From an uncultured Clostridia bacterium (GTDB lineage Bacteria > Bacillota > Clostridia > TANB77 > CAG-508): 46,546 nucleotides of DNA. The notes beneath the pieces were generated by a model. The model saw nothing but the letters and a program-made list of their open reading frames with translations, made no database searches and was not told where the DNA came from. Below, piece after piece: positions 15,254-43,541 of this stretch (the first letter of the stretch is position 1; every line of letters begins with the position of its first letter). A program made the position numbers and the translations under genes. The stretch spans positions 1 to 46,546 of the forward strand of contig CANQSP010000007.1 in assembly GCA_947626555.1 (NCBI GenBank), in the 5' to 3' direction.

Positions 15254-15352
15254 ATGGGAAGAATAATTTTTTTTCATGATTATATAGCTTACTTAGCAGA
15301 GCAAGAAAGGAATATTTTAATATGGAAGAGAGCTTATATAGTATTGGAATAG
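15254..15352 (+). CDS. Possible short upstream reading frame (32 aa) overlapping gshAB
   Basis: An ATG at 15254 with GGAGG about 12 bases upstream opens a 32-residue frame (MGRIIFFHDYIAYL...) that ends inside gshAB in another frame, overlapping its start by 31 bases. It could be a regulatory leader peptide. A T8 run inside it could alternatively hide an indel that would extend the GshAB N-terminus. It may equally be chance. Confidence 0.25.
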   Translation: MGRIIFFHDYIAYLAEQERNILIWKRAYIVLE

Positions 15353-17481
15353 AAAGGGAAGGGTTAAGGTGTGATGAAAATGGAAATTTATCTCAAAAAC
15401 CACATCCACAAGCTTTCTATGATAGGAAGAAGAATAATTTTATAACAACAGATTGGGGAGAAGCACAAATGGAATTAAGAACTCCAGTGTGCAAAGATAC
15501 AAATGAATGTTATGAGAAACTAAACGAAATTACAAATGTTGCTTTATGCGAATTAAATAATCAGCAGGAGGTTATGTGGCCATATAGTATGCAATGCATA
15601 CTTCCAAAAGAGGAAGATTTCCCATGGGGAAATTATGGAACATATATGTATGAATATGAGTATGAAATGTATTTATATAAAAAGTATGGTTATAAAATGC
15701 ATTGTATGTCAGGTATACATGTTAATTGTTCTTTTAGCAATGTATTGTTTGAAAAAATAAAAGCAACATACAAAAGTATACCACAAAATTTAGATGACGC
15801 ATATTGTAAAATAATGAGAGTTTTTATGAAAAGAGCTTGGATATTAATGTATTTCTTTGGAGCAACTCCTTTACAACTTGATGGGGAGGAAAAAAGTAAA
15901 ATATCAATAAGAAATTCAGAAAAAACAGGTTTTACAAACACGAAAAAAATAGAAATAGATTTAACAAGTAAAGAAAAATATATAAATTCAATAAGAAAAT
16001 TAATAAATGAAGGAACTATTAAAGCAGCTACAGAGGTATATTTGCCAATTAGAGTAAAGTCTATAGATAAAAATGATGTACTTAAGGAACTTGAAGAACA
16101 ACCAATAAATCATATAGAAGTTAGATTATGTGATATTAATCCTTTTGATAAATGTGGTATAAATAAAGAGCAAATGGATATAGTAGTCTTATTTTTAATA
16201 AAATGTCTTATTGAAAATGAGGATGATGTAAAGGGGTACAATTATAAGCAAATTGCAAAAGATGGTTTTAATAAAGAGCAAATAGAGCAACTTGCTCAAG
16301 AATTAGACTCATATAAGGAAATAAATGAGACATTAGAACTTGAATTTAAAGAAACTATTGAAAAATATCAAAAAGATATTCAAAATGGAGAAGCAACAAT
16401 AGCAGAAAGAGTAGTAAAATTAGCTCATAGTGAAGGTTTATTAAATGCAATTTTAAATCTTGCTAAAAAGTATAGTGAAGAAGCGGAAAAAATGAGGTAT
16501 AAAATAACTGGACATGCTAATCTAGAGCCATCAACACAAATATTAATAAAAGATGCTATTTCAAGAGGTGTTGACTATAAAATCATTGATGAAAAGAAAA
16601 GCTTTGTAGAATTTAGCAATGGAGATGTAAGAGAGTGTGTAATTCAAGCATCAAAAACATCTAAGGATTCATATATATATCCTTTTATTACTGATGATAA
16701 AATGTATGCCAAAAGAATAATGATTGAAAATGGCATAGATACTCCAATGTGCATATATATTAATAAGAAAATGAATCAAGAAAAGATAGGAAAAGTGATA
16801 AAATCTTTAGTAGGTAAAAAAGTAGTTGTAAAACCTAGAACCACAAACTATGGTGACGGCATTACAATTATTGACAATCCAGCTACAGAAGAAGTTTTGA
16901 AGAATGCAATAGAGTATGCATTTTCTTTTGACGAAGATGTTTTAATAGAAGAATACGTTAAAGGAAACGAATATAGATTTTTGGTATTAGATGGAAAATG
17001 TATTCATGTATCTTGGAGAAGACGTACAAGTGTTGTTGGAGATGGCGTATCTACTATACAACAATTAATAGATAAAAAGGTAAATAGTCTATTATACACG
17101 AGATTTAATAGAAAAATAGTTGTAAATCAACTTATGTTGGATTATCTTTCAGAGCAAGGATATTCATTAGAATATGTGCCTTCAAAAGATGAAAGAATAT
17201 ACCTTCATAAAATTTCAAATGTAAGTAAGGGTGGAGAGGCAGTAGGAGTAAACGAAATAATGCCAGATTACTTTAAAAAGATTGCAGAAAAACTTGTTAA
17301 AGCATTTAATGCAAAAATATGTGGAGTTGATATTATAATAGATGATTTAAATTCAACAAATTACAAAGTTATAGAATTAAATGATAATCCTGGTTTCCTT
17401 TCAAATGAATATCCAGTTGAAGGACAAGGAGTAAAAGTCGGAATAGAAATTCTTAAGTTTTTGAATTTAATAAAAGATTAA
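15322..17481 (+). CDS. gshAB: Bifunctional glutamate-cysteine ligase / glutathione synthetase GshAB (GshF)
   Basis: The enzyme makes gamma-glutamylcysteine and then glutathione, both ATP-dependent, in the cytoplasm. The N-terminal half is a GshA-type ligase: SIGIEREGLRCDENGNL at the start, then TTDWGEAQMELRTPV, MSGIHVNCSFS and IEVRLCDINPFDKCGI. From about residue 475 an ATP-grasp domain follows: KRIMIENGIDTPMCIY, VVVKPRTTNYGDGITII, EEYVKGNEYRFLVLDGK, and a C-terminal VIELNDNPGFLSNEYPVEG. The length of 719 is slightly short against about 750 for Listeria or Streptococcus GshF, mainly at the N-terminus. The start has AAGAAAGGA upstream. Glutathione synthesis suits an anaerobe facing oxygen or bile stress. 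Confidence 0.93.
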   Translation: MEESLYSIGIEREGLRCDENGNLSQKPHPQAFYDRKKNNFITTDWGEAQMELRTPVCKDTNECYEKLNEITNVALCELNNQQEVMWPYSMQCILPKEEDFPWGNYGTYMYEYEYEMYLYKKYGYKMHCMSGIHVNCSFSNVLFEKIKATYKSIPQNLDDAYCKIMRVFMKRAWILMYFFGATPLQLDGEEKSKISIRNSEKTGFTNTKKIEIDLTSKEKYINSIRKLINEGTIKAATEVYLPIRVKSIDKNDVLKELEEQPINHIEVRLCDINPFDKCGINKEQMDIVVLFLIKCLIENEDDVKGYNYKQIAKDGFNKEQIEQLAQELDSYKEINETLELEFKETIEKYQKDIQNGEATIAERVVKLAHSEGLLNAILNLAKKYSEEAEKMRYKITGHANLEPSTQILIKDAISRGVDYKIIDEKKSFVEFSNGDVRECVIQASKTSKDSYIYPFITDDKMYAKRIMIENGIDTPMCIYINKKMNQEKIGKVIKSLVGKKVVVKPRTTNYGDGITIIDNPATEEVLKNAIEYAFSFDEDVLIEEYVKGNEYRFLVLDGKCIHVSWRRRTSVVGDGVSTIQQLIDKKVNSLLYTRFNRKIVVNQLMLDYLSEQGYSLEYVPSKDERIYLHKISNVSKGGEAVGVNEIMPDYFKKIAEKLVKAFNAKICGVDIIIDDLNSTNYKVIELNDNPGFLSNEYPVEGQGVKVGIEILKFLNLIKD

Positions 17482-17622: not shown

Positions 17623-18183
17623 TTGAATGATAATAAAATAATTAAAGATTTTAAATGTAACAAAAACTTAAATATTGAGGAAATAATAGAAACATATAAT
17701 AACTATCTCTACACAATTATTAATAAATTTATTTCTAATCAAGAGGATATAGAGGAAGTTTTATCAGATGTATTTGTTGTATTATGGAATAATTGTAATA
17801 ATAACAAAGTAGATGAGAATGTAAAAATAAAGCCATACTTGGTGGGGATAACAAAGAATTTGGTAAAGAAAAAGTATAGAATTTACAATATGCAAGTTTC
17901 TGTAAAAAGTATGGATGAATTAGAGGTAGAAATTCAAGACAATTATGATATTTCGCTATTAGCGGAAAATAATGAGAAAAGTAAAATTATTCTTGAAGTA
18001 CAAAATAGTATGAAAGAAGAAGAACAAAAGATTTTTATTATGTTTTATTACCAGAACCAAAAAGTAAAAGATATTGCTAAAGTTCTTAATATATCAGTTT
18101 CGAAAGTAAAGATAGTACTTCATAGATTAAGAAATTTAGTAAAGAAAAAATTGAAAGAAAGAGGGTATGACTATGGAAAATAA
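17623..18183 (+). CDS. ECF-like sigma-70 family RNA polymerase sigma factor
   Basis: This is a 186-residue protein with two sigma domains. Region 2 is near residues 15-75 (YNNYLYTIINKFISNQEDIEEVLSDVFVVLWNN, matching the DAEDxxQDxF pattern). Region 4 is near 120-180 (EEEQKIFIMFYYQNQKVKDIAKVLNISVSKVKIVLHRLRNLVKKKL, a helix-turn-helix). It would direct RNA polymerase to a small regulon. The start is a TTG at 17623 with AGGAG about 12 bases upstream. The next gene overlaps its end and encodes a single-pass membrane protein, the usual sigma/anti-sigma arrangement. The promoters it recognises may be those at 9381 and 33781, but that is speculation. Confidence 0.88.
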   Translation: MNDNKIIKDFKCNKNLNIEEIIETYNNYLYTIINKFISNQEDIEEVLSDVFVVLWNNCNNNKVDENVKIKPYLVGITKNLVKKKYRIYNMQVSVKSMDELEVEIQDNYDISLLAENNEKSKIILEVQNSMKEEEQKIFIMFYYQNQKVKDIAKVLNISVSKVKIVLHRLRNLVKKKLKERGYDYGK

Positions 18184-18616
18184 TGAATTAAATAAAACAA
18201 TAATAGATAAGGTGAGAAGTAAAGTAGTTGTATCTAATTTAGAAAGAGAGGAAAAAATGAAATTAAGTAAAAGAAAACAAGTTATTTCAGTAGTAGCAGT
18301 ATTAATGGTATTTTTATTAGGAGGAGTTGCTACAGTAAATGCTGCAACAAATGGCAAACTAGTAGAAGAGATAAAAGGTACATTAAAGGTATTCTTTGTA
18401 AAGGCAGATAATGGAACAATGCAATTAACTTATGAAGGTGAAAGTGAAGAACTACCAGAGGGTGAAGAACAACCAAGTGTAACATATAGTATTACAGGTG
18501 ATTCAGATTTAGAAGTTGAAAAATATTATGTAAAAACGAATGTTATAAATAGTGATGATTTAACTAATAGTGAGGCAATGGAACAAGGAATTGTAGTACG
18601 ATACGAAAATAAATAA
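18173..18616 (+). CDS. Single-pass membrane protein, probable partner of the sigma factor
   Basis: The likely start is the ATG at 18173 (MENNELNKTIID), with GAGGG about 8 bases upstream; an ATG at 18167 is too close to that site. The gene overlaps the sigma factor stop by 11 bases, showing translational coupling. The product has 147 residues: a short cytoplasmic N-terminus (about 35 residues), one membrane helix (QVISVVAVLMVFLLGGVATV), and an extracytoplasmic acidic domain with EGESEELPEGEEQ. The layout is that of an anti-sigma factor or DUF4179-like protein, but no zinc-binding HxxxCxxC is present. The 3' end of this gene is duplicated at 20146-20199. Confidence 0.7.
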   Translation: MENNELNKTIIDKVRSKVVVSNLEREEKMKLSKRKQVISVVAVLMVFLLGGVATVNAATNGKLVEEIKGTLKVFFVKADNGTMQLTYEGESEELPEGEEQPSVTYSITGDSDLEVEKYYVKTNVINSDDLTNSEAMEQGIVVRYENK

Positions 18617-18716
18617 AATATAATTTATTAAAAATGCTAGTTAGTGAATTATAACTTATATATGCAAGTGATTATTTAGATAGTCACTTGTATTTTATTT
18701 TTACATGAAAAAACTT
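18567..18716 (+). repeat. Direct repeat, copy 1 (gene end plus terminator)
   Basis: This covers the last 50 bases of the anti-sigma-like gene and its downstream terminator (CAAGTGA ... TCACTTG, 18662-18692). It is repeated with few changes at 20150-20300, on the other side of the first 407-residue cassette. Confidence 0.85.
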
Positions 18717-18759
18717 TTAAACTTTGAAAAACTGTTTAAGTATAAATCATTTAATTCTA

Positions 18760-18877
18760 TTTACATTTGACATAAAAAGTATTATAATATAGCCTATAAA
18801 TTGGTTATTGCACAACCGAGTATAAAAATATACGGGGGAGTGCAATTCCTCCGTAAATCTTTTTAGGAGGAAAAAAT
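18760..18877 (+). promoter_or_regulatory. Promoter and kissing-loop structured leader, copy 1
   Basis: The promoter is TTTACA (18760-18765), 17 bases, TATAAT (18783-18788). Leader hairpin H1 (18801-18819) has stem TTGGTT/AACCGA and loop ATTGCAC (18807-18813). H2 is optional (GTATA AAAA TATAC, 18820-18833). H3 (18831-18855) has a 9-bp stem TACGGGGGA/TCCTCCGTA and loop GTGCAAT (18840-18846). The H1 and H3 loops are fully complementary over 7 nt. The H3 strand TTCCTCC (18846-18852) is fully complementary to GGAGGAA (18866-18872), which contains the ribosome site. H3 followed by AAATCTTTTT also resembles a terminator. No known riboswitch class is matched. Confidence 0.7.
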
Positions 18878-20101
18878 ATGTCAGTATTAACAGTAATGCC
18901 TAAATTTCGATATCCTTGCTCGAGGCAGTTTCCTTTTGATGAAACTGCCGAAGAAATAGTGAGGGCTATCGAAAAGCGGAATTGGAAAGTACCGGGTATA
19001 ACAGTTGAGTTTGAAACTAATGGCTCTGGAGAAGAAAAATATCAGGAGGTTCAGTATATTACAGGAGATAACTTCAAACTGTACTTTTGCCGAGGTCAAG
19101 GAAATTTTGATGATGGCTCGCATAATTCGGCAGCACTTGAAACTATTTGTATTCCGAAGCAAATGATTGAGGTTTATGAAGACGAATCGGGACCGAGGTA
19201 TTATTTGTATGTAGGTAAGGATTGGGAGGCGGATAAAAAGTGGTTTATGAATTCTATCAAAATAAATGCTAAACTCTTTAAAGAGCCACGAAGATATCTG
19301 GTATACCATGGCAAGCATAATGCCGATAGTCGGAGAGCCAAAGAGTTAGTTGCTCGTAGTGATTTAGGACGAGAGTACTTACCTATAGGTGACGAGCCGT
19401 TTTGGATTAATCTTGAGCAGAAGTTTAATGAGTTTACAATATGGTTAAAAGAAAATGTTCTCGACTATATTCTTACATTTCCAGAAGCAGATGTTATACA
19501 GCCACCAACACCAATGGAAGAACTTATTCCATACGAAGGTCCATGGAAGACAATTTTTAGTATATGTGGGTCACGAGATGCAGAAAGAATAGAAATAGGT
19601 ATGGAAAACCCAAAAAAGTTGATTCCGAAAGCACGACATGCATATTTTGGTAATGGAAGCCGATTAGTACCATTAAGTGTTCAGAATAAAGGTAAGTTCC
19701 CCAAGATAGCATATGACGGTTTTATTTGGTGTGATGTAAATCAGGAAGGTAATGTCACTAAAAATTCAAAATTTGTAGATGAAGTACGGAGTGAGATGTC
19801 TCCTTACCCTTATTTTAGTTCTTGGTACATTGTTGCCATAAAACTCAAATATGCAAATGGTGTTTATGTGGCAGATAATTCAAAGTATGAGGAAACACGG
19901 GAAAAACTTTTTGAGGCTATAGCTCCGCGTGAAAGGCTCACAGATGAGGAACTTAATAGTGCAATTGCCGAAAGGGGAGCGACTATTGTTCCTGTTACCG
20001 AATATAAGGGCAATTACAAAGAGCCAATAGTTCTTATTAACCGTGAATTAGACTTTGATGAAATTGATTGGATTAAAGAAGTTAAAAATCTTGATGAGTA
20101 A
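18878..20101 (+). CDS. Unrecognised 407-residue protein, paralogue 1
   Basis: I do not recognise this family. The protein is soluble with no signal peptide or membrane helix. It starts MSVLTVMPKFRYPCSRQFPF and holds conserved-looking blocks FDETAEEIVRAIEKRNWKVP, QGNFDDGSHNSAALETICIP, YHGKHN, QPPTPMEELIPYEGPW, YDGFIWCDVNQEGNV and a C-terminal RELDFDEIDW. The start is firm (AGGAGG 7 bases upstream). Codons are richer in G+C (gccgaa, cgg, ccgcgtgaaagg) than in the host genes, suggesting import. The second copy at 21751 is nearly identical at both ends but differs in clusters through the middle (roughly residues 148-330). Mixed alpha/beta with many aromatics; enzyme or antagonistic-type function cannot be judged. 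Confidence 0.75.
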   Translation: MSVLTVMPKFRYPCSRQFPFDETAEEIVRAIEKRNWKVPGITVEFETNGSGEEKYQEVQYITGDNFKLYFCRGQGNFDDGSHNSAALETICIPKQMIEVYEDESGPRYYLYVGKDWEADKKWFMNSIKINAKLFKEPRRYLVYHGKHNADSRRAKELVARSDLGREYLPIGDEPFWINLEQKFNEFTIWLKENVLDYILTFPEADVIQPPTPMEELIPYEGPWKTIFSICGSRDAERIEIGMENPKKLIPKARHAYFGNGSRLVPLSVQNKGKFPKIAYDGFIWCDVNQEGNVTKNSKFVDEVRSEMSPYPYFSSWYIVAIKLKYANGVYVADNSKYEETREKLFEAIAPRERLTDEELNSAIAERGATIVPVTEYKGNYKEPIVLINRELDFDEIDWIKEVKNLDE

Positions 20102-20111
20102 TACTGATGTT

Positions 20112-20140
20112 GGACTCCTGGAGATAATCTCTGGGAGTCC
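20112..20140 (+). terminator. Hairpin ending cassette 1
   Basis: 13-bp stem GGACTCCTGGAGA / TCTCTGGGAGTCC with loop TAA. The copy at 22985 replaces a G-T pair by A-T, keeping the fold. There is no U run, so it may act as an RNA 3' end stabiliser instead of a terminator. Confidence 0.65.
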
Positions 20141-20145
20141 ATTAA

Positions 20146-20199
20146 ACTAATAGTGAGGCAATGGAACAAGGAATTATAGTGCAATACGAAAGTAAATAA
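20146..20199 (+). pseudogene. Duplicated 3' fragment of the anti-sigma-like gene
   Basis: This encodes the last 17 codons (TNSEAMEQGIIVQYESK and a stop) of the protein at 18173-18616, with three residue changes, and lacks any start or ribosome site. It is joined to the end of cassette 1 at the shared bases ACTAATAG. It is the front part of direct repeat copy 2. Confidence 0.85.
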
Positions 20200-20300
20200 A
20201 ATATAATTTTATTAAAAATGCTAGTTAGTGAATTATAACTTATATATGCAAGTGATTATTTAGATAGTCACTTGTATTTTATTTTTATATGAAAAAACTT
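20150..20300 (+). repeat. Direct repeat, copy 2
   Basis: This matches 18567-18716 with a few substitutions and one extra T. It carries the gene fragment and a second copy of the CAAGTGA/TCACTTG terminator (20246-20277). The match stops at GAAAAAACTT, after which a separate hairpin (20291-20321, GAAAAAACTT/AAAGTTTTTTC) occurs. Confidence 0.85.
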
Positions 20301-20338
20301 CATAAAATTTAAAAGTTTTTTCATAATTTTGAAAAAAC

Positions 20339-20367
20339 TTGACTATAATAATATAAAAGAGTATAAT
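20339..20367 (+). promoter_or_regulatory. Sigma-A promoter of the DUF4143 ATPase gene
   Basis: TTGACT (20339-20344), 17 bases, TATAAT (20362-20367), 22 bases before the GGAGG site. Confidence 0.75.
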
Positions 20368-20389
20368 AAAAGTAGTTGGAGGAAAGTTT

Positions 20390-21607
20390 ATGGAGAGAAT
20401 AAAAAGAGAAAATTATTTATCTATATTAAAAAATTTCAAAGATGAGCAAATTATAAAAGTGATAACAGGAATTAGGAGATGTGGTAAATCTACTTTATTA
20501 GAGCTATTTCAAGACTATTTAAAAGAAAATGGAGTAGAAGATAATCAAATTATATCAATCAATTTTGAGGATGCAGATTATGAAGAATTACAAGATAGAA
20601 AAAAGTTATATAATTATTTAAAATCAAAATTAGTAAAAGGCAAAAAAACATATATATTTTTGGATGAAATCCAAAATGTTGATGAATTTGAAAAAACAGT
20701 AGATAGTCTTTTTATTAATAAAAGTGTGGATTTATATATAACTGGTTCAAATGCGTATCTTTTATCATCAGAACTTGCAACGTTACTTACAGGAAGATAT
20801 ATAGAAATTAAAATGTTGCCTTTATCATTTAAAGAATATATGTCAGCATTTGAAGATAAAACAGATTTATCAAGGAAATTTAGAGATTATTTACAATACA
20901 GTTCATTTCCACAGGCTACCCAATTATTTAAAATTAATCCACAAAACATTAATTTATTTTTAGATGGAATATACAATACTATTTTATTTAAAGATGTAAT
21001 GCAAAGAAGGGGAATAACAGACAAGAACACATTAGAGAGAGTAACTAAATATTTATATGATAATATAGGAAATAGAACTAGTATGAAAAATATAAGTGAC
21101 AATATAGAAGGATTAGAAAAAAATAATTCATATAACACAGTTTCAACATATGTGCAAGCATTAATAGATAGTTATATTGTATATAAAGCAAATAGGTATG
21201 ATATAAAAGGAAAAGAGTTTTTAAAAACTCAAGAAAAATATTATGCAGTAGATATAGGACTTAGATATTATATGTTAGGTCAAGGTTCTGGTAAAGATAT
21301 GGGACATATATTAGAAAATGTAGTTTATTTGGAACTATTAAGACGAGGATATGAAGTTTATATTGGAAAGTATGACGATTTAGAAGTGGATTTTGTAGCA
21401 AAAAATCCAGAAAATACAATATATTATCAAGTGGCATTAACCACAAGAGAAACAGCTAATGGTAGTATATTAGAAAGAGAATTAGCTCCATTGAAAAAAA
21501 TAAATGATAATTATCCTAAATATATATTAACATTAGATGATGATTTAAATGCTGATTTTGATGGAATAAAGAAAATTAATGTAATAGATTGGTTGCTTAA
21601 TGATTAA
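20390..21607 (+). CDS. AAA-type ATPase with DUF4143 C-terminal domain
   Basis: The N-terminal AAA_14 domain has Walker A TGIRRCGKSTLL (about residues 27-38), Walker B KTYIFLDEIQNV (about 87-98), and a sensor region YITGSNAYLLSSELATLLTGR. The C-terminal DUF4143 region (about 200-400) contains YAVDIGLRYYMLG, ENVVYLELLRRGYEVYIGK and VDFVAKNPENTIYYQVAL, the last resembling a restriction-endonuclease-like core. The length of 405 is typical. These ATPases are common, often horizontally moved, and functionally undefined; some may act as toxins or DNA-binding factors. Codon use is A/T-rich like the host. It sits between the two 407-residue cassettes and has its own promoter. Confidence 0.9.
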   Translation: MERIKRENYLSILKNFKDEQIIKVITGIRRCGKSTLLELFQDYLKENGVEDNQIISINFEDADYEELQDRKKLYNYLKSKLVKGKKTYIFLDEIQNVDEFEKTVDSLFINKSVDLYITGSNAYLLSSELATLLTGRYIEIKMLPLSFKEYMSAFEDKTDLSRKFRDYLQYSSFPQATQLFKINPQNINLFLDGIYNTILFKDVMQRRGITDKNTLERVTKYLYDNIGNRTSMKNISDNIEGLEKNNSYNTVSTYVQALIDSYIVYKANRYDIKGKEFLKTQEKYYAVDIGLRYYMLGQGSGKDMGHILENVVYLELLRRGYEVYIGKYDDLEVDFVAKNPENTIYYQVALTTRETANGSILERELAPLKKINDNYPKYILTLDDDLNADFDGIKKINVIDWLLND

Positions 21608-21631
21608 TTAGCGTTAAATTATGTAGTTCTA

Positions 21632-21750
21632 TTTACATTTGACATAAAAAGTATTATAATATAGCCTATAAATTGGTTATTGCACAACCGAGTATAAAAT
21701 TATACGGGGGAGTGCAATTCCTCCGTAAATCTTTTTAGGAGGAAAAAAAT
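21632..21750 (+). promoter_or_regulatory. Promoter and kissing-loop structured leader, copy 2
   Basis: TTTACA (21632-21637), 17 bases, TATAAT (21655-21660). H1 is 21673-21691 with loop ATTGCAC (21679-21685). H3 is 21703-21727 with loop GTGCAAT (21712-21718). TTCCTCC (21718-21724) is complementary to GGAGGAA (21738-21744). The only change from copy 1 within the hairpin region is one A-to-T in the H2 region (GTATAAAATTATAC), which keeps the possible H2 pairing. Confidence 0.7.
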
Positions 21751-22974
21751 ATGTCAGTATTAACAGTAATGCCTAAATTTTTATATCCTTGCTCTAGGCA
21801 GTTTCCTTTTGATGAGACTGCCGAAGAAATAGTGAGGGCTATCGAAAAGCGGAATTGGAAAGTACCGGGTATAACAGTTGAGTTTAGAACTAATGGCTCT
21901 GGAGAAGAAAAATATCAGAAGGTTCAGTATATTGCCGGAGATAACTTCAAACTGTACTTTTTCCGAGGTCAAGGAAATTTTGATGATGGCTCGCATAATT
22001 CGGCAGCACTTGAAACTATTTGTATTCCGAAGCAAATGATTGAGGTTTATGAAGACGAATCGGGACCGAGGTATTATTTGTATGTAGGTAAGGATTGGGA
22101 GGCGGATAAAAAGTGGTTTATGAATTCTATCAAAATAAATGCTAAACTCTTTAAAGAGCCACGAAGATATCTGGTATACCATGGCAAGCATAATGCCGTT
22201 AGTCGGAGAGCCAAAGAGTTAGTTGCTTATGGTAATTTTGGAAGAGAGTATTCACCTATAGGTGACGAGCCGTTTTGGATTGATCTTGAACAGAAATTTA
22301 ATGAGTTTACAACATGGTTAAAAGAAAATGTTCTTGATTACATCCTTACGTTTCCAGAAGCAGATGTTATACAGCCACCAACACCAATGGAAGAACTTAT
22401 TCCATACGAAGGTCCATGGGAAACAATTTTTAGTATATGTGGGTCAAGCGATGCAGGAAGAATAGAAATAGGTAAAATAGACCCAAAACTTTTGATTCCT
22501 AGCGCACGACATGCATATTTTGGTAAAAGTAATCGATTAGTATCATTAAGTATTCAAAATAAAGGTAAGTTCCCCAATGTAGCATATGACGGTTTTATTT
22601 GGTGTGATGTAAATCAGGAAGGTAATGTCACTAAAAATTCAGAATTTGTATATGAAGTGCGGAATGGCATGACTCCTTACTCTCTTTCTAATTCTTGGTA
22701 CATTGTTGCCATAAAACTCAAATATGCAAATGGTGTTTATGTGGCAGATAATTCAAAGTATGAGGAAACACGGGAAAAACTTTTTGAGGCTATAGCTCCA
22801 CGTGAAAGGCTCACAGATGAGGAACTTAATAGTGCGATTGCCGAAAGGGGAGCGACTATTGTTCCTGTTACCGAATATAAAGGCAATTACAAAGAGCCAA
22901 TAGTGCTTATCAACCGTGAATTAGACTTTGATGAAATTGATTGGGTTAAAAAAGCTGAAAATCTTGATGAGTAA
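21751..22974 (+). CDS. Unrecognised 407-residue protein, paralogue 2
   Basis: Same length and family as the protein at 18878. The N-terminal ~147 residues differ at about five positions (for example KFLYP for KFRYP). The C-terminal ~75 are identical except in the last ten (DWVKKAENLDE for DWIKEVKNLDE). The middle differs repeatedly: VAYGNFGREYSPIG for VARSDLGREYLPIG, KIDPKLLIPSARHAYFGKSN for MENPKKLIPKARHAYFGNGS, and YEVRNGMTPYSLSNSW for DEVRSEMSPYPYFSSW. The gene is intact with the same strong ribosome site. Retention of both copies with clustered replacements suggests functional diversification or gene conversion with a third relative. The function is unknown. Confidence 0.75.
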   Translation: MSVLTVMPKFLYPCSRQFPFDETAEEIVRAIEKRNWKVPGITVEFRTNGSGEEKYQKVQYIAGDNFKLYFFRGQGNFDDGSHNSAALETICIPKQMIEVYEDESGPRYYLYVGKDWEADKKWFMNSIKINAKLFKEPRRYLVYHGKHNAVSRRAKELVAYGNFGREYSPIGDEPFWIDLEQKFNEFTTWLKENVLDYILTFPEADVIQPPTPMEELIPYEGPWETIFSICGSSDAGRIEIGKIDPKLLIPSARHAYFGKSNRLVSLSIQNKGKFPNVAYDGFIWCDVNQEGNVTKNSEFVYEVRNGMTPYSLSNSWYIVAIKLKYANGVYVADNSKYEETREKLFEAIAPRERLTDEELNSAIAERGATIVPVTEYKGNYKEPIVLINRELDFDEIDWVKKAENLDE

Positions 22975-43498: not shown

Positions 43499-43541
43499 TA
43501 ATGTTTATACTTGTTAGCAAAAGTATAAACATTATTTTTTT
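43499..43541 (+). terminator. Terminator after coaE
   Basis: TAATGTTTATACTT / AAGTATAAACATTA perfect stem with an 8-base loop and a T run. The following 240 bases (to 43778) have a short TGCAATC...GATTGCA inverted pair near 43575-43591, and otherwise nothing I can name. Confidence 0.9.

Follow-up and report, generated by a model that had tools for sequence, protein, structure and literature searches.

The closest described counterparts of the leader reported here are riboswitch expression platforms and attenuators, whose logic it shares. In translational riboswitch platforms of the anti-anti-Shine-Dalgarno kind, mutually exclusive helices likewise set whether an anti-Shine-Dalgarno (anti-SD) sequence pairs with the Shine-Dalgarno (SD) sequence. 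Unlike these platforms, the leader has no recognised aptamer or ligand pocket, its first pairing segment comprises just a few nucleotides close to the 5′ end, and its sequences vary from class to class with the pairing logic kept. Guanidine-II and guanidine-IV riboswitches likewise have two short hairpins with loops able to kiss, whereas the leader is without an Rfam match, carries other loops and has a loop complement that extends into an alternative stem. Attenuators of the erm type follow the same segment logic, 1:2 and 3:4 against 2:3, and differ from the leader, which has no conserved leader peptide. In the Helicobacter pylori aapA3 type I toxin mRNA (PMC6733600), metastable hairpins block the SD for a time and a small toxin is what the mRNA encodes; competing anti-SD pairings form in sequence during transcription, as we propose for the leader, whose transient state is, unlike that of aapA3, predicted to expose the SD and whose products are diverse and reach 400 aa.

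Database searches returned no known class for the leader, in agreement with the original prediction made from this DNA. At the gathering threshold, none of 4227 Rfam families matched the window (the whole 46,546-nt stretch analysed), the 20 leader loci searched gave two tRNAs only, and at a relaxed threshold the leader drew only sub-threshold matches, the best being sraA at 24.3 bits against a threshold of 56. The leader was likewise not recognised as described in the parts of the literature covered by a full-text search, which included portions of PMC6429828, PMC8040213, PMC11109978 and PMC6733600. PMC8040213 lists, from human microbiomes, 508 candidate structured RNAs that lie immediately 5′ of genes, and overlap with the leaders is possible. 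To judge from its sequence, the leader looks like a variation on established attenuator and riboswitch-platform logic that is itself undescribed. The elements of the leader, of its second copy and of the genes behind them are as follows.

18760..18788, + strand: promoter, TTTACA, 17-nt spacer, TATAAT (11/12 consensus matches)
about 18794-18796, + strand: predicted transcription start, a few bases 5′ of H1
18801..18819, + strand: H1, weak hairpin presenting L1 (-0.7 to -2.9 kcal/mol)
18807-18813, + strand: L1, ATTGCAC, flanked by GGTT (18803-18806) and AACC (18814-18817)
18820..18833, + strand: H2, short GTAT/ATAC hairpin, forming the tip of the long OFF hairpin as well
18831..18855, + strand: H3, hairpin tying up the anti-SD CCTCC in the putative ON state (-12.8 kcal/mol)
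18840-18846, + strand: L3, GTGCAAT, flanked by ACGGGGGA (18832-18839) and TCCTCCGT (18847-18854)
18807..18846, + strand: predicted alternative OFF hairpin, L1:L3 (7 pairs), AA/GA internal loop, CC:GG, H2 tip (-15.5 kcal/mol)
18846..18872, + strand: predicted SD-hiding hairpin, anti-SD TTCCTCC (18846-18852) with GGAGGAA (18866-18872) (-11.0 kcal/mol)
18865..18870, + strand: SD, AGGAGG, with a 7-nt gap to the ATG at 18878
18878..20101, + strand: putatively regulated gene, 407 aa, without recognised domain, G+C 37.5% (window 27.4%)
21663..21753, + strand: second leader copy, L1 at 21679-21685, L3 at 21712-21718
21751..22974, + strand: second copy of the 407-aa gene, protein 90% identical

The original prediction described H1 and H3 as a pair of hairpins with perfectly complementary 7-nt loops, and the loops, stems and coordinates are as it gave them, ATTGCAC at 18807-18813 being complementary to GTGCAAT at 18840-18846. 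A set of two 7-nt loops that complement each other perfectly, with 4 or more pairs beneath each, arose in 2/20,000 dinucleotide shuffles of the 87-nt leader, compared with 4321/20,000 for a bare 7-nt complement without stems; because the bare complement is common in shuffles, it is the stems that make the loop pair unusual. A scan of both strands of the whole window returned stem-borne complementary 7-nt loops at the two leaders and at one further site, an ATGTTTA loop pair on short stems at 43501 and 43526 that is possibly due to chance. The stems had been called firm, which holds for H3 and not for H1 (-0.7 kcal/mol at 4 pairs, -2.9 at 6), and the loops have exactly 7 nt as sequence, whereas RNAfold adds pairs that narrow the H3 loop to 3 nt. 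The same loop pair is indeed present in the second arrangement pointed out at 21673-21727, but this copy gives no independent support, because the two leaders are 96% identical over 139 bases and their proteins 90% identical.

The predicted fold of the leader places these loops in a different context. The RNAfold minimum-energy fold (-31.1 kcal/mol, z = -4.95, 0/200 shuffles as stable) breaks both the H1 and the H3 stems, pairing L1 with L3 in one long hairpin, the alternative hairpin listed above with its CC:GG extension and H2 tip, and the CCTCC of the H3 3′ arm with the GGAGG of the SD. From this best fold it follows that the loop complement is also half of an alternative stem and that the H3 3′ arm is an anti-SD. 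Of the kissing geometry first proposed, the complementary loops on two hairpins stand, whereas the best fold is one long hairpin; the complementarity behind the loop-loop pairing is conserved, and the pairing extends beyond the loops, as an alternative stem, into the 5′ arm of H3. We read the "kissing loops" mainly as half of that stem. Pairing between the CCTCC of the H3 3′ arm and the SD, the source of the switching logic of the leader, had no place in the original prediction, and the idea that the leader senses something is an interpretation.

Taken together, the leader looks like an undescribed translational on/off switch, because two competing folds, one of which hides the SD, recur before many different genes of related uncultured bacteria. 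We consider it probable that it is a five-segment bistable translational switch acting on the SD and OFF at equilibrium. Segment 1 would be the 5′ arm of H1, segment 2 L1, segment 3 the 5′ arm and loop of H3 (GGRGG...), segment 4 the anti-SD CCTCC and segment 5 the SD GGAGG. CCTCC is able to pair either with the H3 arm, leaving the SD free, or with the SD, hiding it. Pairing of 1:2 together with 3:4 would accordingly leave the SD free (ON) and pairing of 2:3 together with 4:5 would hide it (OFF), with segments 3 and 5 competing for one CCTCC and segments 1 and 4 competing for segments 2 and 3; H1 would thereby compete for L1 and hold it back from H3. OFF would be the more stable end state. As long as the SD is still to be transcribed, H3 is predicted to match or outweigh its competitor, so that the RNA could start out ON and drop into OFF, a course that an intervening ribosome or other factor could prevent. 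An early ribosome, a trans-acting RNA or protein on L1, or an altered 5′ end that removes segment 1 would each be a compatible trigger. We infer the translational nature of the control, its direction, the folding order and any trigger.

The leader DNA was searched against the genus, which gave a match before a different gene in another genome (G014), and a covariance model built on H1-H2-H3 was searched against 292 genomes of the family. At E<=0.1 the model matched 75/292 family genomes, many of the matches being weak, and above 45 bits it matched 15 places in 12 genomes. Fifteen strong matches, which represent 14 distinct leaders and are termed class A here, were aligned. Over 21 pairs in the 14 leaders, 96.9% of cells are paired, and 7/21 pairs have changed on both sides (shuffle mean 1.9, 0/500 as high; slid controls 0-1). 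The L1:L3 helix is paired in 99% of cells with both-side changes in 2/7 pairs, H1 in 98.2% with one pair changed on both sides, H2 in 89.3% with both-side changes in 2/4 pairs, and H3 in 98.8% with both-side changes in 2/6 pairs. The covariance-model search called for originally thus returned homologues with covariation in H1, H3 and L1:L3, and where the loops change, which had been named as the point at which the idea could fail, the complement is mostly kept: L088 carries ATTGTAC/GTACAAT and retains 7/7 pairs, and L181 and L089 retain 6/7, L089 being without an SD and without a gene. The anti-SD:SD helix gave no covariation in the 14 class A leaders, though 91.8% of its cells are paired; since an SD is not free to change, this result speaks neither for nor against the helix. 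TATAAT-like boxes also lie 5′ of homologous leaders, and promoter-like sites in the region overall show no excess over shuffles.

The genes behind class A leaders form three groups with no mutual similarity detectable by BLASTP, namely the 407-aa family (10 rows), a family of 164-179 aa (L082 and L087) and a third (L088 and L181). Loops and stems are conserved within class A; between classes, only the pairing logic and GGAGG/CCTCC are common.

A wider superfamily, in which H3 (GGAGG-loop-CCTCC) is followed by the real SD GGAGG before many different genes, was found with the pattern GGRGG-N4-14-CCTCC-N5-30-GGAGG, which matched 145/292 family genomes, some matches being coding repeats. The pattern occurs three times in the genome of the window itself, and the third occurrence (L277, G000:C58, 831-863) lies before a 60-aa membrane-like protein and has a TTGCACC-class L1 with 6 pairs. 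Leader rows were taken from 30 loci, and most of the others were chosen by eye among the matches listed (100 stretches, including a few weak covariance-model matches; coding-repeat-like rows were left out by eye). The 137 distinct rows comprised 130 with a start codon and open frame and 7 without, and 125 stayed after overlap removal; a set of 116 leaders was obtained from these by excluding nine rows, seven of them dnaJ leaders and the other two GC-rich or coding. Clusters are rough, being built on shared 6-mers, and the largest problem case, with 32 members, is mixed.

At least 7 Watson-Crick pairs between the GG plus loop of H3 and the upstream 62 nt were found in 50/125 leaders, compared with 1.7 expected when loops were matched with upstream segments of other clusters. 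Counting one leader per cluster (48 clusters), 12.3 have at least 7 pairs and 0.8 are expected. Examples of L1/L3 in other classes are TTTACACAGC/GCTGTGTAAA, TTAGAAACC/GGTTTCTAA, TATGAACACC/GGTGTTCATA and TAATGCC/GGCATTA. In the GAAACC/GGTTTC class, the next outward pair is T-A in 5 leaders, A-T in 9 and C-G in 3, with a mismatch in 2/19, so that this flanking pair is Watson-Crick in 17/19 leaders, which was equalled in 1/200,000 shuffles. When L1 was paired with the whole 5′ arm and loop of H3, the duplex beat the mean of swapped partners in 114/116 home-family leaders and fell in the best 5% in 76/116 (p 1.6e-20), with a median rank of 0.014. By cluster (45), the mean rank was in the best 5% for 24 and in the best 25% for 33, and 12/45 clusters ranked poorly, with a mean rank >0.25. 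Outside class A the complement runs to as many as 13-14 continuous pairs, L1 of one class forming 13 as UUGCACCUUUGAA:UUCGGAGGUGCAA; in class A, to which the window belongs, and in the GAAACC class it is interrupted by the AA/GA internal loop, followed in class A by CC:GG. What computation establishes is the complementarity, its conservation through sequence change and the predicted stabilities given below, and the anti-anti-SD partner is kept by compensatory change among homologous leaders and across the superfamily.

Related layouts were also observed. Seven leaders from several genomes (L220, L221, L222, L225, L226, L227 and L170) have GGAGG-loop-CCTCC-GGAGG between an upstream gene end and a dnaJ-like gene, apparently without an L1, and L141 (G000:C22:22131-22212, minus strand) has GGGGGAA / TTTCCCC / GGGGGAA ahead of a start codon, a comparable decoy-SD arrangement in other letters in which no L1 was recognised.

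Predicted stabilities were computed as nearest-neighbour energies with kissing energies left out. With its own upstream segment, the OFF state that hides the SD is more stable in 96/116 leaders, compared with 66/116 when upstream segments are swapped (p 7e-14), and the median preference for OFF is -3.6 kcal/mol with the own segment against -0.7 kcal/mol with swapped ones; OFF is not favoured in 20/116 leaders. In the transcript that ends before the SD, H3 is favoured in 86/116, and a flip from H3 to OFF upon the appearance of the SD is predicted in 66/116. Over the whole set, the upstream hairpin (1:2) that competes for L1 exceeds shuffled sequence in stability (p 1.4e-10), with individual significance (p<=0.05) in only 30/116. 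For the window leader, whose upstream hairpin gives p=0.22 against shuffles, the two states tie before the SD (-0.1) and OFF is favoured by 9.0 once the SD is present; because the earlier state is tied, the window leader does not have to start out ON.

Leaders were also examined in a second family, f5, which belongs to the same order. The strict Watson-Crick test on the GG plus loop failed there, with 1/14 leaders having at least 6 pairs and 1.0 expected. In the whole-arm test, which was picked post hoc after this failure because pairing in f5 visibly runs into GGAGG with G-U pairs, 12/14 fell in the best 10% of partners drawn from the home family, the 14 amounting to fewer independent cases because near-identical leaders are included. 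The pattern also occurs in other families of the order (94/191 genomes, home family included), and f5 alone was examined among them. A class-wide search matched 173/291 genomes, with controls about as frequent and the listed matches mostly coding-like; the reversed-pattern control, in this search as in those of the family and of the order, is not independent, because real leaders can also match the reversed pattern. In family f4, G596:C176:1237-1269 has a hairpin-to-SD stretch, GGAGGTGCAAACCTCCGAACAATTATAAGGAGG, identical to that of home-family leaders, and this identity suggests transfer or strong conservation.

The proteins behind the leaders are diverse and mostly without recognisable family. 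Some are short membrane-like peptides and others reach 400 aa. Among 111 such proteins, Pfam gave 21 families with 22 member matches in all, and thus at least 89/111 are without a Pfam match (E<=0.001); for the same proteins PHROGs gave 19 families and PADLOC 4, one member each. The 407-aa protein has no match to solved structures, to Pfam above cut-off, to PHROGs or to NCBIfam, and is absent from the viral contigs and phages searched. Its distant relatives, at 28-33% identity, lie on Bosea and Methylorubrum plasmids, and a 56%-identical relative (L007) has no such leader. A structure model had a mean pLDDT of 40.3 (four sequences) and was unusable. Leader genes of the home family have a median G+C of 36.5% (106 genes), compared with 28.5% for nearby long open frames (92; p 4e-22), and exceed their neighbours, taken as mechanical open frames, in 58/67 paired loci. 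In f5, leader genes range from 24 to 38% G+C, with no plain GC excess.

Viral contigs were also searched for the loops as a possible source. The class A pattern gave 62 stretches, all without flanking stems; the ACACAGC pattern gave 97, one with GGAGG/CCTCC nearby that is not a leader; the GAAACC pattern gave 5 matches that are not leaders by eye, and a third pattern gave 0.

Around the window leader, the DNA is partly duplicated. In the block at 18567-22974, the last part of a short gene (18167-18616) and the DNA downstream of it recur at about 20145-20290, and an AAA_14/DUF4143 ATPase gene (20390-21607) lies between the two leader-gene copies. Further upstream, 17623-18616 encodes a sigma-70-like factor and, after it, a protein weakly similar to DUF4179, possibly a sigma/anti-sigma pair, and 15322-17481 encodes Glu_cys_ligase and ATP-grasp_6, a glutamate-cysteine ligase fused to an ATP-grasp domain, which is the arrangement of bifunctional glutathione synthases.

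Other explanations of the leader were weighed against the five-segment switch. The best of them, which we hold to be possible though unlikely, is that L1 or L3 is the target of an RNA or protein acting in trans, the intramolecular pairing being what forms by default and common loops marking a regulon. The same L1/L3 does precede different genes, in class A before three protein families and in the ACACAGC class before many proteins, and leaders with a common loop sequence may be regulons opened by one trigger; no such partner emerged from the searches described here, and control of this kind adds a trigger to the five-segment switch and does not replace it.

Less probable still is a kissing-loop riboswitch or sensor, in which H1 and H3 would stay folded, the two loops would pair, and binding of a ligand or ion would hold the complex together, with H3 formed and the SD free. 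The exact 7-nt loops, their exact conserved complementarity and the similar geometry of the ACACAGC class (L164, L168) all fit it, and kissing would add pairs to the ON state, the L1:L3 7-bp duplex being worth -7.2 kcal/mol. Against it, H1 is weak, the loops differ wholly between classes, neither a common ligand-binding core nor an Rfam match was seen, and L1 of other classes is not a loop-presented segment with a loop-only complement; as the complement in those classes runs through the H3 arm, a kissing pair with intact H3 cannot use it. Sequence data alone cannot separate a kissing complex from an extended stem; the former could form in classes that place L1 in a 7-nt loop, namely the window class and the ACACAGC class. 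Within the five-segment switch, kissing in such classes could be an intermediate or an ON-state contact, and kissing of L1 with L3 may, in the window class, be a first contact that gives way to the long OFF stem.

Transcriptional control, with H3 as an intrinsic terminator and L1 as an antiterminator arm, is very unlikely. In the window, H3 together with the AATCTTTTTA behind it is picked up by a terminator scan, but the U-run is not kept, other classes having GAACAATTATAA, AAGAAAATTTAA or AGATAATTA after H3, and H3 lies directly 5′ of the SD, which CCTCC complements throughout, by search pattern. We give slightly less credence again to a DNA element, such as a recombination or insertion site, in place of an RNA switch: home-family leaders precede compositionally foreign genes and the window is partly duplicated, yet the position between promoter and start codon, the SD:anti-SD complementarity and the GU-containing helices fit RNA, and the pieces do not flank genes. 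Leader-peptide attenuation of the erm type is the least credible, as the open frame from a TTG in H1, starting LVIAQP, that 9/15 class A rows have is missing in four rows (the second L086 copy, L088, L181 and L089), is shortened in L082, has a shifting frame at its 3′ end and no SD seen before it, and encodes no conserved leader peptide.

Finally, the five-segment switch can be extended to a larger proposal, which we put forward tentatively and regard as doubtful at present, namely that these leaders form an order-level class, aptamer-less and OFF by default, gating the translation of foreign genes of unknown function, each gene having a leader of its own, in which the loops are free to change within the five-segment logic. 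Such a default-OFF gate, if true, would be an RNA counterpart of foreign-DNA silencing. A 7-nt "kissing" complementarity can be the visible piece of a longer competing stem, and the leaders would, if the reading is correct, offer a natural design for switches made solely of competing helices. Many domain-less genes would become experimentally approachable through whatever opens their leader, and a group of uncultured Clostridia would be using one RNA logic, in which no aptamer can be recognised, before many genes that are unrelated to one another and for the most part uncharacterised.
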